Assembly (NCBI RefSeq): GCF_003610295.1
Contig: NZ_RAPV01000002.1
Location: 1,302,001-1,366,000, forward strand
DNA from: Paraburkholderia sp. BL23I1N1
Lineage (GTDB): Bacteria; Pseudomonadota; Gammaproteobacteria; Burkholderiales; Burkholderiaceae
Direction: 5' to 3'
Length of the DNA stretch: 64,000 nucleotides
Position 1 is the stretch's first letter, and each line of letters starts with the position of its first letter. This document shows, piece after piece, positions 3,943 through 44,086 of this stretch. The notes under the pieces were generated by a model. It searched no databases. It saw only the letters and a list, made by a program, of their open reading frames with translations, and was not told the DNA's origin. The position numbers and the translations under genes were made by a program.

Positions 3943-5586
<1,644 letters not shown>

Positions 5587-17131: not shown

Positions 17132-17141
17132 GGGATTCGAG

Positions 17142-18023: not shown

Positions 18024-18571
18024 AACTCAACGTCATTCCGACCTCGCTCCCGGAAGTGAAAATCGTCGAACCTAAGGTGTTTGCGGATGCTCGCGGGTTT
18101 TTCTTCGAAAGCTTCAACGCGAAAGAATTCGCGGAAGCGCTCGGCGTCAATGCCGAGTTTGTGCAGGACAACCACTCGTTGTCCGCGAAGAACGTCGTAC
18201 GCGGCTTGCACTATCAGCTCGTGCGGCCGCAGGGCAAGCTCGTGCGCGTCGTGTCGGGCGAAGTGTTCGACGTCGCGGTCGATATCCGCAAGGGTTCGCC
18301 GACGTTCGGTCAATGGGCGGGCGAGCGGCTGAGCGCGGAAAACAAGCGGCAGATGTGGATTCCGGCCGGCTTCGCGCACGGCTTCGCTGTGTTGTCGGAG
18401 CAGGCCGAGTTTCTGTACAAGACGACCGATTACTGGTTTGCCGAACATGAGCGTTGCATGCTGTGGAACGATTCGCGGATCGGCATCGAATGGCCGCTCG
18501 AGGGCGAGCCGCTGTTGGCCGCGAAAGACGCGGCCGCGCCGCACCTGGCCGATGCCGAATTGCCGGATTGA
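18020..18571 (+). CDS. rmlC: dTDP-4-dehydrorhamnose 3,5-epimerase
   Basis: The 183-residue cupin epimerase carries the RmlC blocks [51 protein letters not shown] and [13 protein letters not shown], including the catalytic His of LHYQ. It epimerises C3 and C5 of dTDP-4-keto-6-deoxyglucose. Start and stop are tightly coupled with rmlA and rmlD. Confidence 0.98.
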
Positions 18572-18582
18572 AGGGGCGAATC

Positions 18583-25757: not shown

Positions 25758-25993
25758 ATTAGTACACAGCAAAGATAAGCAAATTGAACTTTGAAACACA
25801 TGGCTTGAGCAGCAAATTGCAGACCAGTCATCGGCGGTAGGGGGGCTTACAGGAGGCAGTCAGGCGCAGGTGGCCGCTACGAAGCGTGGAGTAACGCATC
25901 GCGACAATATAACCGACGCACGCGCTGTTATGACCTCCTTCGCAAACCACTAATTCCTCCATGATATCACGTACGTTTGGCGCCGCTAGGCGC

Positions 25994-27170
25994 TCAAGCC
26001 CTGAAAATTGGCGGCAGATCATGGAAAGGTTTGAGCAACGCGGCCTTGTGATCCCATGTCATTAGCGTTTGAACGATCCGTTCGGTCGTTGCCGCCTGTT
26101 CGTAAGGGTTGGCGGCCGCCGCTGCCCGAGCACGAAATTCCGGTGTGAGCGCTTCTGAGATTGCTGCCTTAATCGCCTCCGTTTCGGCAGCGCACGTGAG
26201 TACGCTTTCGCTGCGTATTCTGCCCTGCTGACGACTGCCGATATCGATTGTAGGGATACCGAAGCTCGGCACCTCGATGATCCCGCTTGACGAATTGCCA
26301 ACTACTGCGTCGGCCGCTCGTGCTGCGGATAGATACAGCGTCGCGCCGAGCGACATCGAAAAGCGAAAACGTCCAGCGTGCTTCTGCGAATGTTCGGCCA
26401 GCAGTCGGTTGAGTCCCGCGCCCCCCGGATCCGCGTTTGCACCGGTGAACACGATTAGGCGATCGGGAAAAGCCTCCAGCGCTTCAAGCAGCGCCTTCAA
26501 CTGAATTTCAGGCGCCTGCCGATCAAGTGTCGCCGGATGAAATGTCACCAGGAAGTAAGGCTGGCCTGCGGCGATGTCCAGCCGGCGTTCGACTTCGGTG
26601 TGATCCAGCAGCGGCAACGTGCGGATGTTTTCTACACCGAGTGCGCCGACGTTGTGAACTCGAGCAGGTTCTTCGCCGAGTTGGATGACGCGTTGCCGAT
26701 AAGCTTCCGTGCTAGTGAAATGCAGGTGGCTCATCTTGGTGATCGCGTGCCGGAATGCATCATCCATCGCGCCGAGCGTCAATTCGCCACCGTGGATATG
26801 CACGATCGGAATCTTGCAAACTGTAGCTGCCACGGCCACTGCGATGGCCTCAAAGCGGTCGCCCCAGTATCACGAGCATGTCGGGAGCCAAGCGCTTCAG
26901 CGCCTCGCCGTAACGCATCACGCCGAGGCCAATCGATGTGCAGATGCTCTCGTCGGTGCCGCTGTCGAGCAGCACTTCAACGCGCTCGTCGATTGGCAGT
27001 CCGTCGGCGGCTATTTCCCGCCACGTCGCTCCGGACGATTCCGCGAGGTGCGTTCCGGTCACGAATGTGTTCAGTACCGCACCCGGCGTCGACGCTACCG
27101 CTTTCATCAGCGGTCTGAGCAGGCCATATTCAGCGCGCGTGCCTGTAAAAAAGCAGATCGTTCTGCTCAT
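25994..27170 (-). pseudogene. legG: legG-type hydrolysing NDP-sugar 2-epimerase with frameshift
   Basis: The reading frame begins MSRTICFFTGTRAEYGLLRP at 27170 behind a ggagga site and runs to ILG. It then shifts near 26862-26865, where four C (G in the gene) stand in place of the three that keep frame. Without one of them the protein continues GDRFEAIAVAVAATVC, HIHGGELTLGAMDDAFRHAI and NSSSGIIEVPSFGIPTIDIG, all typical of NeuC/LegG epimerases. The repaired length would be 391 residues, normal for the family. As written, translation stops at 26850. It is either a true pseudogene or a one-base sequencing error in a G run. Confidence 0.88.
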
Positions 27171-27198
27171 ACTTCCTCCAATTTCAGGTCGGCTGTGA

Positions 27199-29301: not shown

Positions 29302-30105
29302 TCACCAGGCGCACCAACCACCGTCTACGATAATATTTTGCCCGGTCACGTACGCCGAAAGGTCGCTGGCGAGGAACAGCGCTGCGCCCTTGAAGTCCTC
29401 TTCAATCGCCATCCGGCCAAGTGGCGTGCGCTCGACGTAGCGTTTCGTGAATTCTTCCGGCTGGTTGCGCCAGACGCCGCCGGGGCTGATTGTGTTGACG
29501 CGCACGTGCGGTGCAAGTGTGGTCGACAGCCAGTTGGTGAGCTGGATCAGCGCACCCTTGCTCGCACCATAGGCTGCGGGATTGCCCATCGACGTACCGT
29601 CGTAGAGTCTCCAATCCGGACCGACGATACCGTAGAGGGACGCGATATTGATAACCGATCCTTTGCCGGAGCGCTTGAGGTGCGGCAATGCGGCTTGGAC
29701 CAGTTCAAACACGGATGTCACATTGACTTCGAACGCCGCGCGCCAAGCCGGCGTTTTCTGCTGTTCGAACGGCACCGCCCAACCTTCCAGTTGAGACGTG
29801 CCGACGAAGGCGGCGCAGTTCACTAGCACGTCGAACCCGCCGCACAATTGCGCGACCTGGTCGGGCAGCGCGCGCACAGCGGTTTCGTCGGCGAGTTCGA
29901 GTTGGAACGTTTCGACGCGCGCCGATGTTCGTGAGCGGATCGCTTGCGCAGCTTCTTCGAGTTGCGGTCCCTGACGGTCGACCAGTACGACAGTGGCGTG
30001 CGCTTCCGCTAGCGCTTCGGCCATCGCAGCACCTAGATGCCCGGCGCCGCCGGTGATGACCGCGGTCTTGCCGGCGAGCGACATGAGTTCTTCGATTCGA
30101 CGCAT
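29302..30105 (-). CDS. Short-chain dehydrogenase, PtmA-like
   Basis: The 267-residue classical SDR has TAVITGGAGHLGAAMAEALA, the catalytic Ser in INIASLYGIVG, Y-x3-K in NPAAYGASKGALIQLTN and the terminal GQNIIVDGGWCAW. The Campylobacter ptm locus for legionaminic-type sugars also has an SDR (PtmA) beside ptmE. The exact reaction is not established here. ATG at 30105 is used; ATG at 30084 is possible. Confidence 0.8.
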   Translation of the reverse strand: MRRIEELMSLAGKTAVITGGAGHLGAAMAEALAEAHATVVLVDRQGPQLEEAAQAIRSRTSARVETFQLELADETAVRALPDQVAQLCGGFDVLVNCAAFVGTSQLEGWAVPFEQQKTPAWRAAFEVNVTSVFELVQAALPHLKRSGKGSVINIASLYGIVGPDWRLYDGTSMGNPAAYGASKGALIQLTNWLSTTLAPHVRVNTISPGGVWRNQPEEFTKRYVERTPLGRMAIEEDFKGAALFLASDLSAYVTGQNIIVDGGWCAW

Positions 30106-30127
30106 GATGGATGGGTAAAAAGTAGGT

Positions 30128-31042
30128 TTAGAGTTGAATCCACGTGCTGCCGGTAGCGGCCTTTTCGGCCGCGCCGATGAAGCGGACCACGTCGACGCCT
30201 TCGTCGAGCGTGCACAGCGTGGACGTATCGTCGCGAACGAAAGCTTCGAGTTGGGCGATGTACGTGACATCCCGCTCGGCTTCGACACGCGTGAGCTCGC
30301 CGTTGACCGTCAGCGATCCGTTCACCAGATCGAGGATCGCCGTCAGGTCAGGGCCATTCAGGTTGATCGAGCGCTGCGGCATCCGGTCGAGGTAGTTGAT
30401 TCCAATCGACACCGCGGGGCAGCACTGGTTGACCGACAACGTCGAAAACACGTCATCACTCCGGATATCGAGGTCGCTGAAATGGCCACCGAGCGCGGCA
30501 ACACGGCGAGCGGGCCCGCATAGCCACAGAGCGAGATCGATCTCGTGCGAGAGATCGCGCAACACGCCGCCGCCCAATTCGACACTCGCCGAATACGATT
30601 GCCGGTAGTCGGTGCCCGGGCGCCATTGCGACAGATGCTGGCCGGCCCGAAAGGACGCCGAGTAGAGCGCCGGTACGTGTTCGAGACGCGCGCGCAGCGC
30701 CTGGATGAGTGGATGAAACCGCAAGTTATAGGCGACATACGCTCGCATATTGCCCAGCTCTGGCGTTTCTTCCGGAAAGCTGTAGACGGGTTTTTCGATC
30801 AGCACTCCACCATCGAAACCGGTGCGTGCCAGTTCGCTAATGGTGTCCGCATGCCGCGCCGTAGGATTCGCGACGACGACGCGGTCCGGTGCGAAAGTTA
30901 AGATCGCGTCAGCCACGTTTTCGAAGCGTGGGAATGGGCAATCCGCGTTGGCAGACACGCAGGCGACTTGCATGCCGAGCGACGCCGCGATCCGGCTATG
31001 GCGCGCGCCGATCGAACCATATCCGACTATGAGAATACGCAT
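30128..31042 (-). CDS. Gfo/Idh/MocA-family oxidoreductase
   Basis: The 304-residue protein has the Rossmann start MRILIVGYGSIGARHSRIAA, the EKP motif in VLIEKPVYSF and GGGVLRDLSHEIDLALWL, typical of this NAD(P)-dependent sugar oxidoreductase family. The start at 31042 is set by a ggaagt site. It sits between the SDR and legI genes, so it probably acts on a sugar precursor of the nonulosonic branch. Substrate unknown; analogous unlinked oxidoreductase genes occur in ptm-type loci. Confidence 0.83.
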   Translation of the reverse strand: MRILIVGYGSIGARHSRIAASLGMQVACVSANADCPFPRFENVADAILTFAPDRVVVANPTARHADTISELARTGFDGGVLIEKPVYSFPEETPELGNMRAYVAYNLRFHPLIQALRARLEHVPALYSASFRAGQHLSQWRPGTDYRQSYSASVELGGGVLRDLSHEIDLALWLCGPARRVAALGGHFSDLDIRSDDVFSTLSVNQCCPAVSIGINYLDRMPQRSINLNGPDLTAILDLVNGSLTVNGELTRVEAERDVTYIAQLEAFVRDDTSTLCTLDEGVDVVRFIGAAEKAATGSTWIQL

Positions 31043-31130
31043 AGACTTCCTTGCAAACCTGTTGTTGCGCGGCATGTCAAGCACGCTTGCCGCTTCGATT
31101 ACACACCTGGACGTCGCGAAAGCAGATGCC

Positions 31131-32135
31131 TTAGATCAGATCGTCCTGCGCATAGTCGCGCGTGGCCGGTTTGCCGACTACCTCATCCCATCGTGCTGGC
31201 GATAGGCCACTGCCAGGGCGCCGCACTGCGAGATTCTCAGTCGAAAGAGTCTCGCCTCGCGAAATCGGACGCGCTGCGACGATACTTTTGCGCGCGATCA
31301 GCCGGTTAGGAATTTCCGATGCGGTGGGCTGTTTTCGTCCATTGCCTAGTGCAAGGCTCACGCGCCGGATCGATGTGACCATGGCTGTCAGTTCGGCCGG
31401 TTCGAGGCTCGCTTTGTGGTCTGGGCCTGTCATCGTGCGATCGAGCGTGAAATGCTTTTCAATCACTTGGGCGCCGAGCGCAGTGGCCGCAATCGGAATG
31501 TCTATGCCTTGGGTGTGATCGGAGTAACCGATCGTGGCACCCGGAAAAGCAGCGCGCATCGTGTTCATCGCGAGCAGGTTGACCTCCTCCACAGGGGCCG
31601 GATATTCGGTCGTGCAGTGCAGCAGCGTGATCTTTTCGATCGGCGTGCCGACGCCGTGCAACGCCATGACAGCATCTTCGATTTCGCCGAGCGTCGCCAT
31701 GCCAGACGAGAGGATGACTGGCCGGCCGATCTTTCCGATTTCACGCAGGAATGGCACGTTGGTCAGATCGCCCGAAGACACCTTGAATGTGCTCATGCCG
31801 AGGTCGGCAAGCATGCGCGCCGCTTCGACGTCGAACGGCGTCGACATAAATTCGATGTTTTTCTTCGTGCAGTATTTCGCCAGTTCGGCGAAAGCTTCCT
31901 GAGGCAACTCGAGGCGCTTCAGCATCTCGAATTGCGACTCGGCGTTGCCTGTGGTGGCTTTCTGATATTCAGCCTTCGGCGCGGCGCGCGTGACGAGCGA
32001 CTCGGCGCGAAATGTCTGGAACTTTACGTAATCGGCGCCTGCCGCCGCCGCTGCGTCGATCAACTGATAGGCCAGATCGAGCGAGCCGTTGTGGTTGACG
32101 CCGGCTTCAGCTATCACCGTGCAATGCTTGTTCAT
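31131..32135 (-). CDS. legI: Legionaminic/N-acetylneuraminate synthase (LegI/NeuB-like)
   Basis: The 334-residue enzyme condenses a hexosamine-derived aldose with phosphoenolpyruvate to a nine-carbon 2-keto acid. The NeuB domain (about 1-245) carries IAEAGVNHNGSLDLAYQLID, YVKFQTFRAE, STPFD and EKHFTLDR. A C-terminal SAF (antifreeze-like) domain follows (about 275-334). The set of neighbours, legB-C-H-G, indicates a di-N-acyl substrate rather than ManNAc. Its start overlaps the legH stop (ATGA). Confidence 0.93.
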   Translation of the reverse strand: MNKHCTVIAEAGVNHNGSLDLAYQLIDAAAAAGADYVKFQTFRAESLVTRAAPKAEYQKATTGNAESQFEMLKRLELPQEAFAELAKYCTKKNIEFMSTPFDVEAARMLADLGMSTFKVSSGDLTNVPFLREIGKIGRPVILSSGMATLGEIEDAVMALHGVGTPIEKITLLHCTTEYPAPVEEVNLLAMNTMRAAFPGATIGYSDHTQGIDIPIAATALGAQVIEKHFTLDRTMTGPDHKASLEPAELTAMVTSIRRVSLALGNGRKQPTASEIPNRLIARKSIVAARPISRGETLSTENLAVRRPGSGLSPARWDEVVGKPATRDYAQDDLI

Positions 32136-32752
32136 CGAGATTTGTCTCCGAAGTAGAAGGTGCCGTCCATCACCGGCTTGCGTACGCGGGAACCCATCGC
32201 GATCAGGCAGTTCGCGCCGATTGTGATGCCCTCGCGACAGATCGTTCCGCTGCCGATCAGCGTGCCATCGCGCACCACGACCTGGCCGTTCAGCACTGCG
32301 GCGGTTGCAACGTGGCAGTGATCGCCGACGACGGCGTCATGTTCGATAAGCGCACGTGTGTTGATGATTGTATTAACGCCGACGCTCGCGTCGGGGCCGA
32401 CCTGCGCGTAATGCATGACGATCGAACCAGCGCCGAGGCGTGCACTGCGAGCTACCCGTGCGAGCGGCGAGACGATTGACGGCAGCGCGAAACCGGCTTC
32501 GCTGAGCCGCGTGAAGATTCGCTGCCGGATCGACGGCGACTTGATCTGACCGACGGTCACAAGCGCGTTTGGGCAAAGCCGCAACAAATCTGCGAGATTG
32601 TCGTCGTACCCGACGACTGGGTAGCCGAGCACGTCGCGAGCTGTGCTGCCGGGCGCCTCGACGATGCCCGCGATTCGCCAGTTGCCTTCTGCTTCAATCA
32701 CGTCGATGACGGCCTTGCAGTGGCCGCCGCCGCCGAATAGCAGGATGCCCAT
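32132..32752 (-). CDS. legH: NDP-sugar N-acetyltransferase (LegH/PglD/NeuD-like)
   Basis: The 206-residue protein has a small Rossmann-like N-terminal domain (LLFGGGGHCKAVIDVI) and a left-handed parallel beta-helix of hexapeptide repeats (about 90-200), the architecture of PglD and LegH. In the legionaminic pathway it acetylates the 4-amino group made by LegC. Placement directly downstream of legC, two bases after its stop, supports this. Confidence 0.88.
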   Translation of the reverse strand: MGILLFGGGGHCKAVIDVIEAEGNWRIAGIVEAPGSTARDVLGYPVVGYDDNLADLLRLCPNALVTVGQIKSPSIRQRIFTRLSEAGFALPSIVSPLARVARSARLGAGSIVMHYAQVGPDASVGVNTIINTRALIEHDAVVGDHCHVATAAVLNGQVVVRDGTLIGSGTICREGITIGANCLIAMGSRVRKPVMDGTFYFGDKSR

Positions 32753-32754
32753 GC

Positions 32755-33909
32755 TCAGGCCGGTTGGCGCAGCACGCCGCTTGGGATGTTGATCAGGCGG
32801 CCGGCAATATCCTGTGTGACCGTCAGCGCGTCGCGCGGCGCCGACGAGAACATCGGCAGCGTATGGAGCGGTTCCCAGATGGGCCGTGTCATCACGCCAG
32901 CTTCGTTGGTGATTTCAAGGCACTCGTCGCGCTGTGCGCGATCGTTCAGCAGGATCGCGCACAGCCAGTAGTTTGACGACGTGCCAGGACGTTCGGTCAC
33001 GAACGGAATGCCGACCTTCGCGAACGCTTCGCTGTAACGTTGAGCGAGATCGCGCTTGAATGCGACGAACGCTTCGAGCTGTTCGAGCTGTGCGCAGCCG
33101 AGCGCAGCGTTCAGGTTGGGCAGGCGGAAATTGAATCCGATTGCATCGTGCTCGAAACGCCAGCGATGTGGGACCTTGGCTGTGGTCGTCAGATGCTTCG
33201 CTCGTTTCGCCAGTTCCGGGTCATTAGTCATGATCGCGCCACCTCCGCCGGTGGTGACGATCTTGTTGCCGTTGAAGCTGAGCGTGCCGAGCAGGCCATA
33301 CGTGCCGCAATGCCGTGATCCGATCCGGCTGCCCAACGCTTCCGCTGCGTCTTCGATGACAGGAATGCGCCACGCGGTGCATACCTCGACGATCTGTTCG
33401 ATGCGGGCAGGCAGGCCGAACGAGTGCATCGGTACGCAGGCAGCGACTCGGCGACCGGTGGCGCGATGGATGCAGCCTGCATCTGTCAGCTCGCACGCGT
33501 CGTGGAGGAACGCTTCGAGCGCGGTAGGCGAGAGGCCGTACGAGTCCGCGTCCACATCGACGAAGGCGGGCATCGCGCCGGCGTGTGCGATCGAATTCGC
33601 GGTCGCAACAAAGCTGAGCGACTGCGTAATCACCAGATCGTCCCGGTTGACGCCGGCGAGCAGCAACGACATATGCAGTGCGGTGGTACCGTTGGTCGTC
33701 GCAATGACATGCGATGCGCCGGTGATGTCCCGCAGCATTGATTCGAACTGGTCGACATAGGCGCCGACGGACGATACGAACGTCGATTCGATCGTCGCCT
33801 GCACATAGGCGCTTTCGTTGCCGTTGAAGATGGGGGCATGCAGTGGCAGAAACCCGTCGGGGCTGTACACGTCCCGAACGGTCTGCACGATGGAGGAGGC
33901 TCGGCTCAT
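32755..33909 (-). CDS. legC: PLP-dependent aminotransferase (LegC-like)
   Basis: The 384-residue aminotransferase of the DegT/DnrJ/EryC1 type transaminates the 4-keto group of the LegB product. The start FLPLHAPIFNGNESAYVQAT and the Schiff-base lysine in LSFNGNKIVTTGGGGAIMT are diagnostic of the LegC/PglE group. ATG at 33909 is chosen because it begins directly before the conserved domain. It lies 16 bases after legB. Confidence 0.9.
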   Translation of the reverse strand: MSRASSIVQTVRDVYSPDGFLPLHAPIFNGNESAYVQATIESTFVSSVGAYVDQFESMLRDITGASHVIATTNGTTALHMSLLLAGVNRDDLVITQSLSFVATANSIAHAGAMPAFVDVDADSYGLSPTALEAFLHDACELTDAGCIHRATGRRVAACVPMHSFGLPARIEQIVEVCTAWRIPVIEDAAEALGSRIGSRHCGTYGLLGTLSFNGNKIVTTGGGGAIMTNDPELAKRAKHLTTTAKVPHRWRFEHDAIGFNFRLPNLNAALGCAQLEQLEAFVAFKRDLAQRYSEAFAKVGIPFVTERPGTSSNYWLCAILLNDRAQRDECLEITNEAGVMTRPIWEPLHTLPMFSSAPRDALTVTQDIAGRLINIPSGVLRQPA

Positions 33910-33925
33910 GGTTCGATAGAGTTGA

Positions 33926-34930
33926 TCAGACGTTGTAACGATCGGCCTTGTAGCTAGCCAGGTTGGCCGGGTCCGTGAACCACTCGACCGTTTTGGCAAG
34001 GCCCTTGCGGAAGCCGTCCACGCCGCCGAATTCCGGCGCCCAGCCGGTCAGCTCGCGCAGGCGGCTGTTGTCCGCAAGCAGTCGTTCGACTTCGCTCTTT
34101 TCCGGACGCAGACGCTGCTCGTCGGTTTCGATCGTCACTTCGGCACCCATCGTCTCAGCGATCATCCGGACAGTATCGCCGATGCTAACTTCGAAGCCGC
34201 TTCCGGCGTTGAGCACCTGGCCGAGCGCCTGATCGCTATTCATCACGGCTTCGAACGCACGGACCGTGTCGGTCACGAAGTTGAAGTCGCGCGTCGGATG
34301 CAGCGAACCCAGTTTCAGATTGCGTTGCCCGTTCGCGATCTGCGTGATGATGCTCGGAATCACTGCGCGCGCCGACTGGCGCGGTCCGTACGTGTTGAAT
34401 GGGCGGAGTACGGCGACCGGTGTTTCGAACGACATGTAGAACGACAGCGCGATCTGATCGGCACCGATTTTCGAGGCCGAATACGGCGATTGACCTTGCA
34501 GCGGATGGGTTTCGGCGATCGGAACAGTGCGCGCCGTGCCGTAGACTTCGCTCGTGGACGTATGGACCACGCGCGCTCCGAGGTCGCGCGCCGCCTGAAC
34601 GATGTTCAGCGTGCCTTTGACGTTCGTGTCGACGTAGGTGTCAGGCGAATGGTACGAGTACGGAATCGCGATCAGCGCGGCGAGATGCAGCACGGTATCG
34701 CAGCCTTCTACGGCTTTGCGCACGCCGTGCGGGTCGCGGATATCGCCGGCAAATACGTCGAGCGACGACTTGATGTCCGCCGGGGCGCGGTCGAGCCAGC
34801 CCCACGAATTGAATGAGTTATACAGAACGAAGGCGCGGACGTCGTATCCGGCCCTCACCAGGTATTCCGTCAGGTGCGAACCAATAAAGCCATCGGCACC
34901 GGTGACGAGGATTCGTTTCTTGGCAGACAT
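33926..34930 (-). CDS. legB: NDP-HexNAc 4,6-dehydratase (LegB-like)
   Basis: The 334-residue SDR-type dehydratase has ILVTGADGFIGSHLTEYL, HLAALIAIPYSYHSP, STSEVYGTA, the catalytic YSASKIGADQIALSFY and PFNTYGPRQSARAVIP. It would make the 4-keto-6-deoxy intermediate of the legionaminic pathway, GDP-linked if the ptmE-like enzyme supplies the donor. It heads the legB-C-H-I series, 82 bases after the acyltransferase. Confidence 0.92.
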   Translation of the reverse strand: MSAKKRILVTGADGFIGSHLTEYLVRAGYDVRAFVLYNSFNSWGWLDRAPADIKSSLDVFAGDIRDPHGVRKAVEGCDTVLHLAALIAIPYSYHSPDTYVDTNVKGTLNIVQAARDLGARVVHTSTSEVYGTARTVPIAETHPLQGQSPYSASKIGADQIALSFYMSFETPVAVLRPFNTYGPRQSARAVIPSIITQIANGQRNLKLGSLHPTRDFNFVTDTVRAFEAVMNSDQALGQVLNAGSGFEVSIGDTVRMIAETMGAEVTIETDEQRLRPEKSEVERLLADNSRLRELTGWAPEFGGVDGFRKGLAKTVEWFTDPANLASYKADRYNV

Positions 34931-35012: not shown

Positions 35013-36269
35013 TCAACGTTCCGGCGTTTTTGAAGCTGAAGCTAACGCGGGCTGCATCATGCCGTTTCTATAAAAGTTCATGACCCAGCGGCGTGCGGGC
35101 ATTTCCAGGAATCGGTAGGCGAGCCACGAGACCGCGAGCAGGATCGCAAGGAATGCTGCTGATTTCCAGATCATCTCGGGTACTTGCGCACTGAGATCGC
35201 CTCTGGATTTGACCATGAAAAATGGGAACAGATTCCCATGCAGCAAGTACAGCGAGTAGCTGATCTCACCGATGAACATTAATGGTGCGGTGCATGCAAG
35301 TTTGCCCAACCATTTCCTGCTTCGGCATATGGCATAGATTGCGGCAGGAACGGCAATCGCGTACCCGCTGTAAAGGCGATATCCGCCAAAAAGACGTGGT
35401 GCGTCGTAGAGGCTGCCGTCGAGCAGTGACGCTCCGATGTACAGGATGCCAATCACACCCGCTAGCCGCGCCACTAGACGTGCCGGTCCCGATTCGGCGT
35501 GGCCACCCCGCGAGAGCCAGATTTCCGCAATTCCGACGCCGGCGAGGAACTCGAAAACACGGCCGTACGGCGAGTAGTAGACGAGCCAATGAGTCGGATC
35601 GACACCTTGCGCTGTACCCCAGATCCGCGAAATACCGTTCACCACTTCGTCGGTGGATGCCATCCGGATAAAAACGGTCCGGCAAGCCATCGCTGCCAGT
35701 GCCAGCAAAATTCCGCGCCACAACGAATGACGCTTGAAGCCGCCGTAAAGCGCGAGCGGAATGAACAGCAGGTAGAGGAAAAATTCGACGCTGATTGACC
35801 AGGAATTATTGGCGAATTCTTGTGAAATCGACAAATTGAATCCGTTGAACGTCGAATAGAACCATGACTGCATCCCCGCCAGATAGACAGGAAACGACGC
35901 GGAGTAGACGTTGGCTGCCAGTTGTCTGCCTTGGTATGCCGCATACGTCAGATTGGCCAGGTAGTTGAGCAGAATCACCGGCAAATACAGCGGATAGAGA
36001 CGCGCGAAGCGAGCGAACAGAAACGCGATGACGCCGCGCTCGCGCTCGCCGGCAAGCCGATCAGAGTAGTTGTAATGTATGACGAACCCGCTCAGCACGA
36101 AAAAGGTCGTCATGCCGAGCACGCCAAATTTTGCGAGGGCGGGCTCGACGCTCGTTGCTCTGAGCGGCAGCATCAGGAGACCCATATGATGCACAACGAC
36201 CAGTAACGCTGCGACACCGCGCAAACTGGTCAGAGCATCGATTGAAGGGCGGTTGCGTACATTGGACAT
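35013..36269 (-). CDS. Acyltransferase 3 family membrane protein, copy B
   Basis: The 418-residue protein has about ten membrane segments and the family motifs SLRGVAALLVVVHHMG, FFVLSGFVIHYNYSDR and FIGEISYSLYLLHGN. It would O-acylate a sugar of the glycan. It is not a close relative of copies A and C. ATG at 36269 is used; the codon just upstream is TTG. It sits between the yersiniose-type and legionaminate-type genes. Confidence 0.9.
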   Translation of the reverse strand: MSNVRNRPSIDALTSLRGVAALLVVVHHMGLLMLPLRATSVEPALAKFGVLGMTTFFVLSGFVIHYNYSDRLAGERERGVIAFLFARFARLYPLYLPVILLNYLANLTYAAYQGRQLAANVYSASFPVYLAGMQSWFYSTFNGFNLSISQEFANNSWSISVEFFLYLLFIPLALYGGFKRHSLWRGILLALAAMACRTVFIRMASTDEVVNGISRIWGTAQGVDPTHWLVYYSPYGRVFEFLAGVGIAEIWLSRGGHAESGPARLVARLAGVIGILYIGASLLDGSLYDAPRLFGGYRLYSGYAIAVPAAIYAICRSRKWLGKLACTAPLMFIGEISYSLYLLHGNLFPFFMVKSRGDLSAQVPEMIWKSAAFLAILLAVSWLAYRFLEMPARRWVMNFYRNGMMQPALASASKTPER

Positions 36270-36430
36270 CAATCAGACTAGGCCGGTGATATGGGAAGTG
36301 AGGAACAACTTGACATGCGTGGCGCGGCGGATTTGCTGAGCAGCAAGGGCCGGCGAAGTACAACTCCTGTTCAGCAGCGTTCAATGGTGATGCACCGTGC
36401 AAGGTGAACCACTGTTATCCCCGCGATCGG

Positions 36431-36459
36431 CGACGCTCGGGCGCCATGCCCGAGCGTCG
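36431..36459. repeat. Perfect 12-base-pair hairpin in intergenic region
   Basis: cgacgctcgggc, loop gccat, gcccgagcgtcg. It lies about 70 bases beyond the yerE-like stop and 160 bases before the acyltransferase start. No T tract follows on either strand, so it is more likely an attenuating or mRNA-stabilising stem than a simple terminator. Confidence 0.55.
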
Positions 36460-36529: not shown

Positions 36530-38326
36530 TTAATCGTCGTTGTCGAACATCGTCATGTTGCGTTCCAACTCTTCACGCGGCAGCAGCGGGTCCATATCTT
36601 CCATCGGACGCGATGCGATCGTGCCGTCCGGCTTGCGGTACGAATTGGCGCGGAAGCGTTGCTGTTCCTGCGAGACCAGCATTTCCACGATCCACGGGTC
36701 CTTGTCGGCGAACACGGTCTTGATCGCGTCCGGCAACTGGTCGTTGGTTTCGATCAGCATGTACTTCAGGCCGAAGGCTTCCGCCAGCTTCCTGAAGTCG
36801 GGGTTGCCCACGCCGGACAGCTTGTCGGTACCGATTTCGCGGCCGTCGAAGAAGCGACGTTGCGTGTTGCGCATACTCTGATAGCCGTCGTTGTTGCTGA
36901 TGAACAGCTTCGCGTTCAGGCGGTTCTGCGCGAGGAACATCAGTTCCTGGATGTTGAACAGCACGCTGCCGTCGCCCGTCACCAGCACGCCGCGGCGCTT
37001 CTGGTCGTCTGCGATGCACGCGCCGACGAGCGCGGGAAGATCCCAACCCATCGCGCCCATGCACGCGCTCGTGAACGCGACCTGGCCGTCCTTCACGCGA
37101 TGGTTCTGATACGCGATGATGCAGCCGTCGAGCGAATTGCCGCTGACGACCACGTCCGTATTGTCGAGTTGACGCGACAGTTCGTCATACGCCGCGTAGA
37201 TGTCGACGTGAGACTTTTGCAGATGCTCCGGCGCCGGCATCGGCGGGTATTCGCGCTTCCACATTGCGCAGGCGTCGAGCCAGCGCTGCGTCGGCTGGTA
37301 GGTGTGCGCTTCGACGCGTTTCAGCAGACCTTCGATGAATTCCTTCACGTCCGCGAGGACCGGGTATTCGATCGTGATGTTCTTCTTTTTCAGGTCGCCG
37401 GCGTCGATGTTGACGAGCACCTTCTTGGCCTTCGGCGCGAACTTGTCGCTGAAGCCGATGGCCGAGATCGACAGGCTCGTGCCGAGCGCGAGCACTAGGT
37501 CGGAGTTCTGCAGCGCGAAGTTCGCGCGGCGCTGTCCGCCCGGGCCGATGCGGCCCTGGAACAACGGGTTATCTTCCGCGAGGATGTCCATGCCGCTGAT
37601 CGTCGATAGTGCCGGGATCTGCAGCTTCGCGACGAGTTCGCGGAATGCCTTGCGCGCGTGACCGAGCACGATGCCGTTGCCACCGATGATGACCGGGCGC
37701 TTCGAGGCCAGCAGCAACTCGGCGATCTGGCCGAGAGCGGCCGGGTCGAGTTCCGGCGTGGCTTTTCCTTCCGGAACGAACGAGCGCTGCTGATCCGGTT
37801 CGATCATCGCCGACTGGATGTCGAGCGGCAGATTCAGCCAGACCGGGCCCGGGCGTCCGGCACGCGTCAGGTACAGGCACTTTTCCAGTTCGTAGCGTAG
37901 GTCTTCGGGCTTGGTCACCGTCACGCAGTGCTTCGTAACCGGCTCGGCCATCGGCGTGATGTTGATTTCCTGCGGACCGACCTGACGCTGGTAGCTGTAG
38001 TCGGCCATGATGCCGGTGCGCACCTGGCCGGAAATCACCAGCACCGGGATCGAATCGACGAACGCGCCCGCGACGCCGCTCAGCGCGTTGGTGCTGCCCG
38101 GACCGGTGGTGACGAGGCAAACGCCGAGGTTTTCCGTGGTGCGTGCATAGCCTTCCGCGGCGATCGCGCATGCCTGTTCGTGATAGTTGCACCAGTAGCG
38201 CAGATCTTTCGACCGGTTCAACGCATCCGTCAGGTACATGATGCCGCCGCCCGACACCATGAACACGTCCTTGACTCCAGCCTCTGCGACTCGCTGGAAC
38301 ACATAATCCGAGACACTGATTGCCAT
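36530..38326 (-). CDS. yerE: Thiamine-diphosphate enzyme, YerE-like (branched-sugar acetyl transfer)
   Basis: The 598-residue protein has acetolactate-synthase architecture. The catalytic glutamate is E50 in CNYHEQACAIAAEGYAR, and the thiamine-diphosphate motif is GDGS (451-454) to NN (478-479). Beside ddhA-ddhB-ddhC and a yerF-like gene, the best match is YerE of Yersinia pseudotuberculosis O:VI, which adds a two-carbon unit from pyruvate to C4 of CDP-4-keto-3,6-dideoxyglucose. No biosynthetic ilv genes are near, so acetolactate synthesis is unlikely. The assignment rests on context plus family. Confidence 0.85.
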   Translation of the reverse strand: MAISVSDYVFQRVAEAGVKDVFMVSGGGIMYLTDALNRSKDLRYWCNYHEQACAIAAEGYARTTENLGVCLVTTGPGSTNALSGVAGAFVDSIPVLVISGQVRTGIMADYSYQRQVGPQEINITPMAEPVTKHCVTVTKPEDLRYELEKCLYLTRAGRPGPVWLNLPLDIQSAMIEPDQQRSFVPEGKATPELDPAALGQIAELLLASKRPVIIGGNGIVLGHARKAFRELVAKLQIPALSTISGMDILAEDNPLFQGRIGPGGQRRANFALQNSDLVLALGTSLSISAIGFSDKFAPKAKKVLVNIDAGDLKKKNITIEYPVLADVKEFIEGLLKRVEAHTYQPTQRWLDACAMWKREYPPMPAPEHLQKSHVDIYAAYDELSRQLDNTDVVVSGNSLDGCIIAYQNHRVKDGQVAFTSACMGAMGWDLPALVGACIADDQKRRGVLVTGDGSVLFNIQELMFLAQNRLNAKLFISNNDGYQSMRNTQRRFFDGREIGTDKLSGVGNPDFRKLAEAFGLKYMLIETNDQLPDAIKTVFADKDPWIVEMLVSQEQQRFRANSYRKPDGTIASRPMEDMDPLLPREELERNMTMFDNDD

Positions 38327-38428
38327 TCTTTTTTGCCTAAAAATGTAATTACAAAGCTTCGAGGTTGACGAAGCCTTCTCTACGATCTATTGACGGACGG
38401 CGTCTGGACGCCGTCGTTTCACCGCTCA

Positions 38429-39508
38429 TCACACTACCTTGCTGCCTCGCGCGCGATGCCAGTCCATCGTGCGCCGGATCGCTTCTTCAAGCGGAATCGA
38501 GACCTGCAAATCCAGTTCGGCCGCGGCGCGCTGCAGCGACGGCACATACGCCGACGGCTTCGCGCCCGGCACCGGCGTGCCTTTGATCACCACCGTGTCC
38601 GGCCGGCCGGCGACCTTCGCGACCGTGCGCGCCAGCTCGCCGATCGATACGATCTCATTGCCGCCGACGTTGTACGGCACGCCCGAGCGGCCGCGCGTCA
38701 GCACACGAATCAACCACACGACCAGGTCCGCCGCGTACAGGTACGAGCGCTGCGGCGTGCCGTCGCCGCCGACCACGATTTCGCGGCCCGCAAGCGCGTC
38801 GCGAATGAAGTTGCCGATCGCGTAGTTGCTGTCGAGCGCGAGGTACGGGCCGACGAACGCGAAGCAGCGGGCGATCAGCGCGCGGTAGCCGTGCTGCTGC
38901 GCGGCTACCGACGTTATTATTTCCATCATGCGCTTCGACTGACCGTAGACGATCCGCTCGGACGCATAGTCGGCGACGCCGGCCGGCCCTTCGACACAGA
39001 GGTTGTCGACGACCGAATCCATCGGCGAATAGACCGCGCCAGAGGTCGTGATCAGCACAGCCTCCGTACGATGCGCAACGGCCATGTCGAGCAGGCGGCG
39101 CGTGCCGTCGATCGCCGCATTCAGGTGGCGCTGCGCCCAGTCGCCGGACTGTTCGAGGTTCGTCTCCGACGCCGCATGCAGAATGTGGCTGCACGCGTCA
39201 GTGGGCGCTTCGAAATCGGTCAGGCTGCCGGCGATGAAGTTCAGTCCCGCGCGACCGCGCAGATGCGGTGCGCGTTGTTCGAGGAATTTCTCCGGTGATC
39301 GGCTCAGCACCGTGACGCGCAGGTTCAGCGCGTGCTTCTCATTTGCCCACAGCAGGCTCTCGAGCAGCCAGATGCCGAAGAAGCCAGTGCCGCCCGTGAT
39401 GAACAGATGGGCATCGCGCAACTGCGCCAGATCGTCTTCCAGTTGGGCGGCGACATGTTCCAGATCGCGTTGGAACAGTGTGTGGCCGCTCGGAATCGTG
39501 TGCTCCAT
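38429..39508 (-). CDS. yerF: Extended SDR, YerF-like reductase
   Basis: The 359-residue protein has LFITGGTGFFGIWLLESLLW, SGAVYSP, the Y-x3-K of YGQSKRMMEII and an NDP-sugar-type C-terminus. YerF reduces the acetyl branch left by YerE to a hydroxyethyl group, giving CDP-yersiniose A. Family resemblance to CDP-abequose synthases is equally compatible. Start at ATG 39508 is used; the upstream frame begins only with TTG. It lies 102 bases upstream of the yerE-like gene in the direction of transcription. Confidence 0.8.
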   Translation of the reverse strand: MEHTIPSGHTLFQRDLEHVAAQLEDDLAQLRDAHLFITGGTGFFGIWLLESLLWANEKHALNLRVTVLSRSPEKFLEQRAPHLRGRAGLNFIAGSLTDFEAPTDACSHILHAASETNLEQSGDWAQRHLNAAIDGTRRLLDMAVAHRTEAVLITTSGAVYSPMDSVVDNLCVEGPAGVADYASERIVYGQSKRMMEIITSVAAQQHGYRALIARCFAFVGPYLALDSNYAIGNFIRDALAGREIVVGGDGTPQRSYLYAADLVVWLIRVLTRGRSGVPYNVGGNEIVSIGELARTVAKVAGRPDTVVIKGTPVPGAKPSAYVPSLQRAAAELDLQVSIPLEEAIRRTMDWHRARGSKVV

Positions 39509-39515
39509 AAAACTC

Positions 39516-40457
39516 TCAGTCAAAGTTGATGCGTTCGCGCTCGACCACCATCGGCCGCTTCACTGTGTGGGTGACCAGCAGGCCAACGTATTCGCCGAGC
39601 AGCCCCATCAGCAGGAACAACATGCCCATGAAGAAGAACAAGCCGATCGCGAGCGGCGCGATACCCATCTGGAATTCGCTCCACGCCAGCAGCTTGCGCA
39701 CGAAGTAGTAGATGCCGGTCAGGAAGCTGAGGCCGCTCATCGCAATGCCGATCATCGTCGCAAGACGCAGCGGCGCTTTCGAGTGGTTGACAATGCCGAG
39801 CAGCGCACTGTCGAGATAGACGAGGAACGTCCCCTTCGAAATGCCGCGCTTGCGCACCGGCTTGTCGAACGGCACTTCGGCGCGTGCGTAGCCGATTTCG
39901 CAGATCAGGCCGCGGAAATACGGATACGGGTCTTCGATCTTGCGCAGAATGTCCATTACTGCCTTGTCGTACAGACCGAAGCCGGTGAAGTTCTGCACCT
40001 GTTCGACTTCCGAAATGCGCGTGATCAGCGCGTAGTAGGCCTTGCGCATCAGCGGCATCAGGCCGCGCTCTTCGTGCTTACGGCGCACGCCGATCGCCAC
40101 CTTGAAACCTTCTTCCCACTTGCGGATGAAATCGAGGATCAGTTCAGGCGGATCTTCGAGGTCCGACGCCATGCCGATCACGGCGTCGCCTTGCGCGAGC
40201 AGCAGCGCGTGATACGGCGAGCGGATGTGGCCAAAGTTGCGGACGTTGACGATCGCCTTCAGACGCTTGTCTTGTGCGGCGATTTCCCGGATGACTTCAA
40301 CGGTGCCGTCGGTCGACGCATTGTCGATCAGCAGGATTTCGTAGTCGAGATGTGGCACCTGCGCCATCACAGCAGTAATGCGCTGATGGAGTTCGGCGAT
40401 GTTGTCGCGCTCGTTGAAGCAGCCGGCAACGATACTAATTAGTTTCTTGTCGCTCAT
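39516..40457 (-). CDS. Polyprenyl-phosphate glycosyltransferase, GtrB-like
   Basis: The 313-residue protein has a GT2 domain with SIVAGCFNERDNIAELHQR, ILLIDNASTDGT and ASDLEDPPELI, then two membrane segments (about 230-300). This is the architecture of GtrB/DPM-like enzymes that put a sugar on undecaprenyl phosphate. It is translationally coupled to gtrA (ATGA overlap). The pair would deliver a sugar to the periplasm for side-chain addition. Confidence 0.88.
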   Translation of the reverse strand: MSDKKLISIVAGCFNERDNIAELHQRITAVMAQVPHLDYEILLIDNASTDGTVEVIREIAAQDKRLKAIVNVRNFGHIRSPYHALLLAQGDAVIGMASDLEDPPELILDFIRKWEEGFKVAIGVRRKHEERGLMPLMRKAYYALITRISEVEQVQNFTGFGLYDKAVMDILRKIEDPYPYFRGLICEIGYARAEVPFDKPVRKRGISKGTFLVYLDSALLGIVNHSKAPLRLATMIGIAMSGLSFLTGIYYFVRKLLAWSEFQMGIAPLAIGLFFFMGMLFLLMGLLGEYVGLLVTHTVKRPMVVERERINFD

Positions 40458-40885
40458 CCGCGCTGTACTTTCTTGAAAGTGAACCGGTCGTGACCCGCGT
40501 AGGAAATGGCCACGCTGACGCCCATGAGCATGCCCTGAGCAAGCCAGAACGGAATGCCGAGGACGTTCACGAGCAACCATAATCCGGCGATGCCAATGAG
40601 TGCGCTGCTGCCGTACACGACATAGCAGCGCAGATATTCGCGCAGCCACGGGGCGCGCGAGTTGAACACGAAGAGCTTGTACGTAATGAACGACTCGGTG
40701 ATGCAGATCACGTTGGCGATCACACCAATCACAACGATGTGCAGATGCGGCCGCAACGCATAGTACAAACCGACGGTCGCGAAGTAGCCGAAGGCGGTGT
40801 TGAGGCCGCCCACGAGCAGGTAGCGCAACATCTTCTTGCGCGATTCCCGGTCGCCGGTGAATACCGCTTTCAGCTTGTTCAGCAT
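40454..40885 (-). CDS. gtrA: GtrA-family membrane protein, probable polyprenyl-sugar flippase
   Basis: A 143-residue protein with four membrane segments and the GtrA features YLLVGGLNTAFGYFATVGLYY and FITYKLFVFNSRA. GtrA proteins are thought to flip undecaprenyl-phosphate-linked sugars. It pairs with the GtrB-like enzyme downstream. Phage serotype-conversion modules add a third gene, a GT-C transferase; the 681-residue protein at 27199-29244 could fill that role. Confidence 0.87.
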   Translation of the reverse strand: MLNKLKAVFTGDRESRKKMLRYLLVGGLNTAFGYFATVGLYYALRPHLHIVVIGVIANVICITESFITYKLFVFNSRAPWLREYLRCYVVYGSSALIGIAGLWLLVNVLGIPFWLAQGMLMGVSVAISYAGHDRFTFKKVQRG

Positions 40886-40935
40886 GTTAGCTTGCTGCCT
40901 TTCACAGAGTCGTTCCGTTCATTTTGCCCGGCCGC

Positions 40936-42255
40936 TTAGAAATTCACGCCGAGGAAGGTTTCGATCTTCTCGGCGATGTAGTCGAGCTGCGGCTGCTTCA
41001 GACCGGGGAATGTGCCGACCCAGAACGTGTCGTTCATGATCACGTCGGTATTGGTCAGTTCGCCGCTCACGCGGTAATTGCGGCCGATCATGTACGGCTG
41101 GCGCGTCAGATTGCCCGCGAACAGAAGGCGTGTACCGATCTTGTTCTGGTCGAGATAGGTCAGCAGATCGACGCGGCGCAGGCCTGCTTCCGGCTTCAGC
41201 GTGATGGGAAAACCGAACCACGACGGGTCCGAATTCGGTGTCGCTTCCGGCAGGATCAGGAATTCGGCGCAACTGCTCAGACGGTCTTTCAGGTACGCGA
41301 AGTTACGGCGGCGCGCTTCGACGAACTCGGCCGCGCGGTCGAGCTGCGCGAGGCCACAGGCGGCCTGCATGTCGGTGATCTTCAGGTTGTAACCGAGGTG
41401 CGAGTACGTGTACTTGTGGTCGTAGCCTTCCGGCAGGTTGCCGAGCTTCCAGCAGAAGCGCTTGCCGCAGGTGTTGTCCTTACCAGGCGGGCAATAGCAG
41501 TCGCGGCCCCAGTCGCGGAACGATTCGGCGATCAGACGCAGGTCCGGATCGTTCGTGAACACCGCGCCGCCTTCGCCCATCGTGATGTGGTGGGCCGGGT
41601 AGAAGCTTAGCGTGCCGATATCGCCGAACGTGCCGACCATCTTGCCGTTGTAAGTCGAACCGAGCGCGTCGCAGCAGTCTTCGATCAGCCACAGGTTGTG
41701 CTTTTTGCACAGCGCGACGATCACGTCGAGGTTGTAAGGATTGCCCAGTGTATGGGCCAGCATGATCGCCTTGGTCTTCGGGCTGATCGCAGCTTCGATC
41801 TTCGACGCGTCGATATTGTACGTGCCCAGTTCGACGTCGACGAACACCGGCACCGCGCCGAATTGCAGGATCGGGTTCACGGTCGTCGGGAAGCCAGCGG
41901 CGACGCCGATGACTTCGTCACCCGGCTTGATCGCGCGGTCGCCGAGCTTCGGCGAAGTCAGCGTCGAGAACGCAACTAGATTCGCCGACGAACCCGAGTT
42001 GACCGTGATCAGGTGCTGCACACCGATGAACTTCGCGAGACGTTGCTCGAACTGTTCGTTAAAGCGTCCCGTGGTGAGCCAGCCGTCTAGCGATGCGTCG
42101 ACCATCAGCTCCAGTTCGCGCGCGCCGATGACCTTGCCTGACGGCGGAATCACCGTGACGCCGGCTTCGAAGTCGGGTGCGCGCGTGGCGAGTTCGCCGA
42201 ACTGGCCGACCAACTGAATAATTTGCTCTCTGAGCTGCTCTTTACTGGGATTCAT
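40936..42255 (-). CDS. ddhC: CDP-4-keto-6-deoxyglucose 3-dehydratase (E1, RfbH/DdhC)
   Basis: The 439-residue PMP- and iron-sulphur-dependent enzyme removes the C3 hydroxyl. In place of the usual aminotransferase lysine it has His ([16 protein letters not shown]222-H223), as in Yersinia E1. Four cysteines fit C-x57-C-x-C-x7-C exactly (C195, C253, C255, C263), the E1 [2Fe-2S] ligand pattern. Its reductase partner DdhD (E3) is not encoded in the window. Overlaps ddhB by ATGA. Confidence 0.96.
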
Positions 42256-43319
42256 TTGACTTGGTAGGCATTGATTTGTGAAAGGGACAGCGCGCGCATA
42301 TCGGCATTTCGCAGGAAAGCCTGATGCCACTCGACGATGTGGTCGATCGCTTCGGAAAGCGTCCAGCGCGGCGACCAGCCGAGCAGGTTCTTTGCCTTCG
42401 AGCAATCGAGTTTCAGATAGGTCGCCTCGTGAGGCTGCGGTGCGGCATCGCGCTGCCAGGCGGCACCGTCGCCCCAGCGGGACACCAGATGTTCGACGAT
42501 CCATTGCACGGGTTGCGTGTCAGAATCGTTCGGGCCGAAATTCCAGCCGCCGGTGAACTTTGTGCCCTCCGTATGGAGTTTTTCGGCCAATAGCAGATAA
42601 CCACTTAACGGTTCGAGGACGTGCTGCCATGGCCGGATCGCATGAGGATTGCGGATCTGCACGGGCACACAGGCGCTGACTGCACGCATCATGTCGGGAA
42701 TCAGGCGGTCGCCCGCCCAGTCGCCGCCACCGATCACATTGCCGGCGCGACCGCTGGCGAGAGCGACACGGTGTTCAGCGAACGCATGCGGATTGAAATA
42801 CGAATTCCGGTACGCGTCGGTGACCAGTTCAGCGCAGCCCTTGCTGTTGCTGTACGGATCGAAGCCGCCCATCGGCTCGGTTTCCCGATAGCCCCACACC
42901 CACTCGCGATTTTCATAACACTTGTCACTCGTGACGTTCACGACTGCACGTACCGATGACGTGCGACGCACCGCCTCGAGCAGAAGTACCGTGCCCATCA
43001 CGTTGGTGGAGTAGGTTTCAACTGGTTCTTTGTATGACAGACGCACAAGCGGCTGGGCCGCCATGTGAATCACGATCTCTGGCTGGTTTTCATCGAAGAC
43101 GCGCACCAGATGATCGAGATCGCGGATGTCGCCGATAATCGACCTCATGCCTTCGCCGACGCGCGCGGTGTCAAACAGGCTCGGCTTGGTCGGCGCAGCA
43201 AGTGCATAACCGGTCACCTCGGCTCCGAGTTGTTGCAGCCACAAGCAAAGCCAGCCACCCTTGAAGCCCGTGTGGCCGGTTACGAGAACGCGTTTGCCTC
43301 GCCAGAATTGCTCGTTCAT
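42252..43319 (-). CDS. ddhB: CDP-glucose 4,6-dehydratase (RfbG/DdhB)
   Basis: The 355-residue enzyme has [47 protein letters not shown] and [20 protein letters not shown], typical of CDP-glucose 4,6-dehydratases. ATG at 43319 gives the normal N-terminus. It is the second step of the CDP-3,6-dideoxysugar pathway, coupled to ddhA and ddhC by ATGA overlaps. Confidence 0.97.
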
Positions 43320-44086
43320 GCCCACACTTTCCACGGTGCCTGGTTCGAGTTCCAAAGATCTTCAAGGTGATTCTTGTCGCGCAAGGTATCCATGGGTTGC
43401 CAGAAACCGCTATGGAACCATGCCTGCATCTGTCCTTCGCGCGCAAGCCGCTCCATGGGGCCGCGTTCCCAGATCGTGTCGTCGCCGTCGATGTATTCGA
43501 TCACCTTGGGTGACAGCACGAAGAAACCACCGTTGATCCACGCGCCGTCGCCGTGCGGCTTTTCCTGAAAGCTGCGAATGAGGTTTTCCTGCACATCTAG
43601 CGCGCCGAAACGGCCGGGAGGCTGTGTTGCGGTCAGCGTGGCGAGCTTGCCGCCTGCACGGTGGAATTCAATCAACTTTGTGATGTCGACGTTGCCGACA
43701 CCATCGCCATAGGTAAAGCAGAAATCTTCGCCGCCGAGGTACTGCGCGACGCGCTTCAGGCGGCCACCGGTCTGGGTTTGCTCGCCGGTATCGATTAGCG
43801 TGACGCGCCACGACTCCGCGTTGTTCTGGTGAACTTCCATTGTGTTGTCGGACATGTTGAACGTGACGTCGGACATGTGCAGGAAGTAGTTCGCGAAGTA
43901 TTCCTTGATAACGTAACCCTTATACCCGCAGCACACGATGAAGTCGTTGACGCCATGGGCGGAATACGTCTTCATGATGTGCCAGAGGATGGGGCGGCCG
44001 CCGATTTCGATCATCGGCTTTGGCTTCAGATAGGTTTCCTCGGAAATTCGGGTGCCCAAGCCACCAGCGAGCAACACTGCTTTCAT
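43316..44086 (-). CDS. ddhA: Glucose-1-phosphate cytidylyltransferase (RfbF/DdhA)
   Basis: The 256-residue enzyme makes CDP-glucose. [40 protein letters not shown] and the terminal [17 protein letters not shown] are diagnostic. It is the first gene of the long leftward block, downstream of a 756-base intergenic region shared with the rightward glycosyltransferase operon. Confidence 0.97.

Follow-up and report, generated by a model that had tools for sequence, protein, structure and literature searches.

A candidate nonulosonic acid donor branch for a CDP-activated branched sugar in Paraburkholderia sp. BL23I1N1

Introduction

YerE of Yersinia pseudotuberculosis and PpYerE (5ahk) are thiamine diphosphate (ThDP) enzymes that transfer an acyl anion to a ketone, the acceptor being a cytidine diphosphate (CDP)-3,6-dideoxy-4-ketohexose, and YerE prefers pyruvate as the donor (PMC12247030). 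A carboligase with the same predicted role is encoded in the stretch of DNA analyzed here, 64,000 nucleotides (nt) of Paraburkholderia sp. BL23I1N1 (contig NZ_RAPV01000002.1, positions 1,302,001 to 1,366,000 of the forward strand), referred to below as the window. Its gene is the last of a run for CDP-3,6-dideoxyhexose synthesis and is followed, 1.6–12 kb downstream on the same strand, by a legB-legC-neuD-neuB-neuC-ptmE set, which the initial annotation of the run had left out of its frame. We consider it likely that this locus uses a nonulosonic acid, not activated with cytidine monophosphate (CMP), as a 2-keto-acid donor, and that two converging branches lead to a CDP-activated C14 branched sugar. 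Held slightly less firmly, and still favored, is the more specific proposal that the acid is a C8 acyl donor to CDP-4-keto-3,6-dideoxyglucose, giving a 14-carbon sugar, and that throughout the family the neighboring 2-keto-acid synthase sets the branch.

Other enzymes of this kind are described with larger donors. JanthE and ErwE accept long or hydroxylated 2-keto acids (PMC12247030, PMC12188165). For ErwE, pyruvate is reported as not used, 4-hydroxy-2-oxo acids are preferred, and the acceptor is CDP-4-keto-3,6-dideoxyglucose, as proposed for the window (PMC12247030). Caryophyllose, 3,6-dideoxy-4-C-(1,3,4,5-tetrahydroxyhexyl)-hexose, carries a 2-deoxy polyhydroxyalkyl branch (PMC5706390). Such a branch is the product expected from a C7 3-deoxy-2-keto acid; starting from a C9 nonulosonic acid, the branch would be of the same type but with eight carbons (C8). 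ErwE (erwiniose) and MMAR_2332 (caryophyllose) resemble the proposed enzyme in their long hydroxylated 2-keto-acid donors; their branches, however, are shorter than the proposed C8, and both are compared here by description, outside the sequences of our tree. A 2025 review quotes a C2–C8 donor range for ThDP enzymes and lists SpirE as a putative YerE-like enzyme branching a functionalized sugar (PMC12247030), and yersiniose A is chemically known from Burkholderia brasiliensis (Mattos 2005, as cited in PMC4753412 and PMC4153317).

α-Aurantose of Spirochaeta aurantia, the sugar linked to SpirE, is a branched C14 sugar that would fit the sum of C6 and C8, and by analogy it may be a chemical precedent for the proposed product. 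An in-silico list compiled by Krug in 2024 reportedly holds over 200 YerE-like enzymes. The steps of the legionaminic acid pathway are named PtmE, PtmF, PtmA, LegB, LegC, LegG, LegH, and LegI, with LegF as the CMP-legionaminic acid synthetase. To our knowledge, all uses of nonulosonic acids in glycans run via the CMP-nonulosonate.

The ddh genes and the carboligase

Seven genes (ddhA, ddhB, ddhC, gtrA, a GtrB-like gene, a gene for an extended short-chain dehydrogenase/reductase (SDR), and the carboligase gene) occupy the minus strand between 44086 and 36530, just as initially annotated (Table 1). DdhA, DdhB, and DdhC exceed the curated NCBIfam equivalog cut-offs, and the DdhC open reading frame (ORF) contains the E1-type cysteine pattern C-x57-C-x-C-x7-C, in a single occurrence, as well as FYPAHH. 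Together these make up a gene set for a CDP-3,6-dideoxy-4-ketohexose. A histidine replacing the pyridoxal phosphate-binding lysine of DdhC, claimed in the initial annotation, is presumably present as well. Domain searches also recovered the ThDP enzyme and extended SDR described beside the ddh genes, and the gtrA and GtrB-like genes placed between ddhC and the SDR gene. Among the window ORFs scanned, no DdhD (E3) reductase was recognized; a genome-wide search for DdhD was not made. The starts of ddhB (43319), ddhC (42255), gtrB (40457), and the SDR gene (39508) were refined from the sequence, and ATGA overlaps occur at the ddhA/ddhB, ddhB/ddhC, and gtrA/gtrB junctions. The SDR scores 427 bits against a profile built from the SDRs of related loci, and the GtrB-like protein has C-terminal hydrophobic stretches, as judged by eye.

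The closest solved structure to the carboligase is JanthE of Janthinobacterium sp. HH01 (8rph), with 34% identity and 351 bits, vs. 257 bits for acetohydroxyacid synthase (AHAS) I of Escherichia coli (6lpi) and 205 bits for PpYerE. An AlphaFold2 model built from a 35-row alignment (mean pLDDT 92) matched six JanthE chains first (TM-scores 0.92–0.93) and then acetohydroxyacid synthases; 5ahk was absent from the best 50 fold matches listed. JanthE has a CDG motif where the window enzyme has GDG. The JanthE active-site columns V121, Y268, P293, Y297, and K567 correspond to P118, G263, S288, F292, and R559 in the window enzyme, and no donor prediction is drawn from them.

The tree comprised 97 rows, namely 93 carboligases (the window enzyme among them), JanthE, PpYerE, E. 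coli AHAS I, and a paralogue from the window's own genome; the carboligases of loci L080 and L086 and YpYerE were left out, and loci L028 and L045 gave two rows each. A split at 100/100 separates 95 rows, PpYerE and JanthE among them, from E. coli AHAS I and the paralogue. JanthE and all but one of the carboligase rows (92 of 93, with the window enzyme) group at 100/100, whereas PpYerE pairs with the archaeal L045_10594 outside this JanthE-side clade of 93. JanthE and PpYerE both have long branches, so the placement of PpYerE is less sure. Within the JanthE side, the window enzyme belongs to a nine-member clade (100/100). Judged by sequence, the carboligase counts as YerE-like in the wide sense used by the 2025 review (PMC12247030) but is not grouped with YerE proper as PpYerE represents it. 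The earlier assignment to the YerE type therefore stands as far as a YerE-like carboligase distinct from IlvB is concerned, and is unsupported in its specific match to YerE.

When PpYerE was searched against 369 genomes of the class, three matches reached E ≤ 1e-85 (35–38% identity); their loci had no ddh profile matches and, in L124, one weak match to the NEUA profile described below. A plasmid collection yielded 44 records; the best 30 of the 44 had 29–34% identity, and the annotated records among the matches listed were named acetolactate synthases.

Linkage to nonulosonate synthesis

Downstream of the carboligase gene, LegB, LegC, NeuD, and NeuB exceed curated cut-offs and form a legionaminic-type nonulosonate set. 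Every step of the legionaminic acid pathway but the CMP-synthetase has a counterpart in the window, with that of LegG split, and neuB is the sole PF03102 match of the genome. We take the Gfo/Idh/MocA oxidoreductase to be PtmF-like, the classical SDR to be PtmA-like, and the nucleotidyltransferase to be PtmE-like.

The linkage between carboligase and nonulosonate synthase is conserved in the nine-member clade, which consists of the window, L022 (genome G074), L023 (G117), L024 (G283), and L035–L039. Its hosts are Burkholderiales, including Paraburkholderia sp. BL21I4N1 (L038) and Pandoraea anhela (L039), and metagenome-assembled genomes (MAGs) of Sandaracinaceae (L035), Verrucomicrobia (L036), and Actinomycetota (L037). 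All nine carboligase loci contain a NeuB-family synthase gene, and each of the nine genomes has one ddhC over the NF011936 cut-off, on the contig of the strong NeuB match. In L038 and L039 the gene order is legC-neuC-neuD-carboligase-neuB, with neuB 76 and 94 nt away; in L023 and L024 the carboligase gene is the last of a same-strand leg run; and in L037 one strand carries ddhC, legC, ptmE, neuB, neuC, an SDR gene, a Gfo gene, an SDR gene, and the carboligase gene. NeuB of the window, L037, L038, and L039 scores above the cut-off of the N-acetylneuraminate-synthase model, and NeuB of L035 above that of the PseI model, so the acid probably differs between members. The other genome of the genus among 399 genomes of the order (G255) has neither carboligase nor NeuB at the thresholds used.

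A PF02348 search, in which other protein families were not covered, gave no candidate CMP-nonulosonate synthetase in any of the nine clade genomes, and hence no LegF counterpart in the whole window genome. Its single PF02348 gene is KdsB (TIGR00466, 252 vs. 155). Six of the other eight genomes have one strong match (180–208 bits, presumed KdsB), accompanied by a weak one in G117; in the L035 and L037 MAGs the sole match is weak. A CMP-synthetase within the window was also considered and rejected: the PtmE-like gene is of the NTP_transferase type, and no window ORF matches the NEUA profile. This profile, made from five ORFs of four seed places (one being an overlapping frame), recovers both control loci, L118 with 138 bits and L119 with 135. 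Among the 93 carboligase loci it matches three (L065, 140 bits; L093, 61; L050, 60), none in the nine-member clade. The carboligase locus of L065 has NEUA, NEUC, and PTME profile matches and no NeuB match, the window's pattern reversed.

Across the 399 genomes of the order, NeuB occurs at E ≤ 1e-63 without a carboligase at E ≤ 1e-100 in 102. Of these, 95 have at least two PF02348 genes, vs. none of the four in which NeuB is linked to the carboligase (G000, G074, G117, and G283; Fisher p = 6.6e-5, with the NeuB cut-off picked after the data were seen and the contingency table compiled by hand). Eleven carboligase-bearing genomes have NeuB, and three of these (G106, G129, and G333) carry a second PF02348 gene, which lies beside a NeuB gene on a contig other than that of the carboligase. 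As a separate observation, twelve genomes (G039, G042, G087, G128, G200, G217, G230, G260, G277, G306, G319, and G346) combine a single PF02348 gene with NeuB at E of about 1e-55 to 1e-62 and lack a carboligase at E ≤ 1e-100; in them, NeuB without a CMP-synthetase may have other uses.

Proposed pathway

We infer the donor, the acceptor, the order of steps, the C14 product, and its delivery as follows. In the acceptor branch, DdhA, DdhB, and DdhC would convert glucose-1-phosphate to CDP-4-keto-3,6-dideoxyglucose. In the donor branch, the PtmE-, PtmF-, and PtmA-like proteins with LegB, LegC, NeuD, NeuC, and NeuB would produce a C9 3-deoxy-2-keto acid, namely a nonulosonic acid of the legionaminic type. 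Decarboxylation of this acid by the ThDP enzyme, with loss of CO2, would give a C8 acyl anion for addition at C4 of the CDP-sugar, leaving a tertiary alcohol with a keto side chain, and the extended SDR would reduce the side-chain ketone. GtrB and GtrA may load the sugar on undecaprenyl phosphate and flip it for a surface polysaccharide, with the 681-amino-acid hydrophobic protein perhaps as the transferring enzyme. That protein has no Pfam match, and a GT-C type transferase is our guess for it.

A nonulosonic acid, rather than pyruvate, is proposed as the donor because a NeuB-family synthase occurs in all nine clade loci and none of the nine genomes has a second strong PF02348 gene. Further support comes from the carboligase being nearest in sequence and fold to JanthE, which, like ErwE, takes long or hydroxylated 2-keto acids, from the presence of ddhC on the NeuB contig in every clade genome, and from the candidate 2-keto-acid synthases, with their clustered labels, in 66 of the 93 loci of the wider family.

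Several points weigh against this proposal. One-PF02348 genomes also occur without the carboligase, in seven of the 102 genomes above and in 12 of 17 with weaker NeuB (1e-63 < E ≤ 1e-30), so the missing synthetase alone proves little; when six of the seven were searched again, no carboligase match above 32% identity was found. Conversely, three of the seven carboligase genomes with NeuB at E ≤ 1e-63 have at least two PF02348 genes. The NCBIfam calls for NeuB cover the window and L035–L039, not L022–L024, and the L036 protein falls below both cut-offs. Completeness is not stated for five of the nine clade genomes (L035–L039), three of them MAGs, and the lack of even a strong KdsB-type match in G399 (L035) is a sign of genome gaps. 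In the window itself no intact NeuC/LegG is encoded, since neuC is broken into two pieces lying in different reading frames, with the junction at profile position 107, near 26850–26870 (window 25994–27281). The split may be either a real frameshift or an assembly error; because of it, the donor branch may be dead in this strain. The ddh-carboligase and leg runs may also be separate transcripts, as they are divided by a 258-nt gap with a 12-bp inverted repeat, which has no T-run and is not among the terminator-like sites found. Finally, nonulosonic acids are mostly cyclic, which disfavors a role as ThDP donors, and we know of no enzyme of the nine-member clade that has been assayed with one.

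The wider family of carboligase loci

The 93 carboligase loci comprised 12 from the order, 80 named loci, and the window. Genes were called by matching ORFs to profiles that derive from these loci themselves, at thresholds set by hand, and contig ends truncate many of the loci. Profile matches were found for ddhA in 60 loci, ddhB in 46, ddhC in 61, and the SDR in 45, and for NeuB in 19, a divergent NeuB, often labeled as a cupin fusion, in 32, and an HpcH/HpaI-like protein in 16. These last three are plausible makers of 2-keto acids; 66 loci have at least one of them, and several of the other 27 are cut by contig ends. The synthase labels cluster on the carboligase tree (24 changes vs. a shuffled mean of 54), the HpcH label being taken from one member tried against Pfam (28 vs. 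a cut-off of 25 bits) and the NeuB-cupin label likewise from one member.

That member, the divergent NeuB of L027, has PF03102 and a C-terminal cupin domain (PF07883). Of 29 divergent NeuB proteins, 18 have 495–553 amino acids, 10 have 361–415 and may be without the cupin, and one is partial. Divergent NeuB genes of about 500 codons lie directly upstream of the carboligase gene in L027 (11502–13007), L029 (7388–8893), L030 (7767–9287), L032 (10984–12489), and others, and in L027, L029, and L030 they overlap it by 4 nt. In the carboligase loci of L025, L062, L079, L082, L087, and L106, a protein resembling HpcH/HpaI recurs, as does one resembling 3-dehydroquinate synthase, perhaps for a cyclized branch.

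Alternative readings

The rival that survives best, and which we still judge rather unlikely, is the yersiniose A route, as initially annotated: pyruvate would be the donor, the SDR would be YerF, and the leg genes would provide nonulosonic acid for a residue of its own in the same polysaccharide. The ddhABC genes with a ThDP enzyme and an SDR are indeed the yersiniose gene set, the compound is known from B. brasiliensis (cited in PMC4753412), and JanthE accepts pyruvate too. However, the JanthE-side clade excludes PpYerE, whose score of 205 bits compares with 351 for JanthE, so neither the specific match to YerE nor a 4-C-hydroxyethyl product is supported, and a NeuB-family gene accompanies the carboligase in every clade member. 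Moreover, by the route we know, such a separate residue would lack its activation step, as the PF02348 search gave no candidate CMP-nonulosonate synthetase.

Very unlikely, in our view, is a donor role for another medium-length 2-keto acid that the cell makes elsewhere (a 4-hydroxy-2-oxo acid, for instance), which would lead to an erwiniose-like sugar. ErwE takes such acids (PMC12247030), and HpcH/HpaI-like proteins occur in loci of relatives outside the nine-member clade (16 of 93 loci); neither the window nor the other eight clade loci, however, have an HpcH-profile match over the threshold. That the enzyme is an acetolactate synthase that has diverged and has nothing to do with the sugar genes can practically be dismissed: it has ThDP-enzyme domains and its best NCBIfam model is acolac_lg, but it reaches 347 bits vs. 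a cut-off of 538, stands apart from AHAS in score and fold and from both acetolactate-synthase-type rows of the tree, a grouping on which the initial annotation would have fallen, and its family is accompanied by ddhA (60/93) and ddhC (61/93).

Should a nonulosonic acid be the donor, NeuB without NeuA would here mark a donor branch for giant sugars rather than an orphan or broken sialic-acid pathway, and surveys counting NeuB genes would misassign such genomes. The branch of dozens of YerE-like loci would become predictable from the adjacent synthase, and the locus would point to ThDP enzymes that may take C9 polyfunctional donors, past the C2–C8 range of the 2025 review. While yersiniose in Burkholderia is already known, a nonulosonic acid donor role, if shown, would probably be a new use of sialic-like acids. 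In the literature searched, we found no nonulosonic acid as the donor of a branching ThDP enzyme, no pairing of YerE with NeuB or of thiamine diphosphate with nonulosonic, and no tetradecose; key papers of the family lie outside that search, and they or a thesis may hold the NeuB link.

Gene content of the window

Table 1. Coordinates and supporting matches of the features discussed.
Feature	Position	Strand	Evidence
ddhA, glucose-1-phosphate cytidylyltransferase	43316–44086	−	TIGR02623 471 bits vs. cut-off 300
ddhB, CDP-glucose 4,6-dehydratase	42252–43319	−	TIGR02622 510 vs. 278; ATG 43319 overlaps ddhA stop
ddhC, E1-type 3-dehydratase (RfbH)	40936–42255	−	NF011936 758 vs. 423; refined start 42255
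gtrA, small GtrA-family membrane protein	40454–40885	−	PF04138 63 vs. 26 bits
GtrB-like family-2 glycosyltransferase	39516–40457	−	PF00535 85 bits; ATG 40457 overlaps gtrA stop
Extended SDR, predicted reductase of the new branch ketone	38429–39508	−	PF01370 111 bits; refined start 39508
ThDP carboligase, GDG motif	36530–38326	−	TPP N, M, and C Pfam domains, all three
12-bp perfect inverted repeat 3' of the carboligase gene	36431–36459	.	possible end of first transcript
Membrane acyltransferase	35013–36272	−	PF01757 84 bits
legB, NAD-dependent 4,6-dehydratase	33926–34930	−	TIGR04180 519 vs. 475
legC, aminotransferase	32755–33999 (ORF limits; start inside)	−	TIGR04181 520 vs. 420
neuD, acetyltransferase	32132–32752	−	TIGR03570 190 vs. 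161
neuB, nonulosonate synthase	31131–32135	−	TIGR03569 497 vs. 400
Gfo/Idh/MocA oxidoreductase	30128–31084	−	PF22725 30 vs. 27 bits; clusters with L037 protein
Classical SDR	29302–30288 (start inside)	−	clusters with L037 protein
681-amino-acid hydrophobic protein	27199–29244	−	clusters only with L038 and L039 proteins
neuC, N-terminal piece	26850–27281	−	profile positions 5–107
neuC, C-terminal piece	25994–26839	−	profile positions 107–394; TIGR03568 311 vs. 236
Nucleotidyltransferase, presumed PtmE-like	24684–25799	−	PF00483 144 bits; clusters with L037, L039, L065
Wzx-like flippase	23304–24668	−	NF041503 75 bits, below its cut-off 300
Family-2 glycosyltransferase	22267–23307	−	PF00535 74 bits; common to L023, L024, L038, L039

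Beyond the tabulated genes, RmlB-, RmlA-, RmlC-, and RmlD-type domain proteins are encoded in a row on the plus strand at 16037–19479, so rhamnose is probably part of the same polysaccharide. At the left edge of the window, a Mu-type transposase domain and a chaperonin (cpn60) gene lie at 1340–2800 and 3946–5586.

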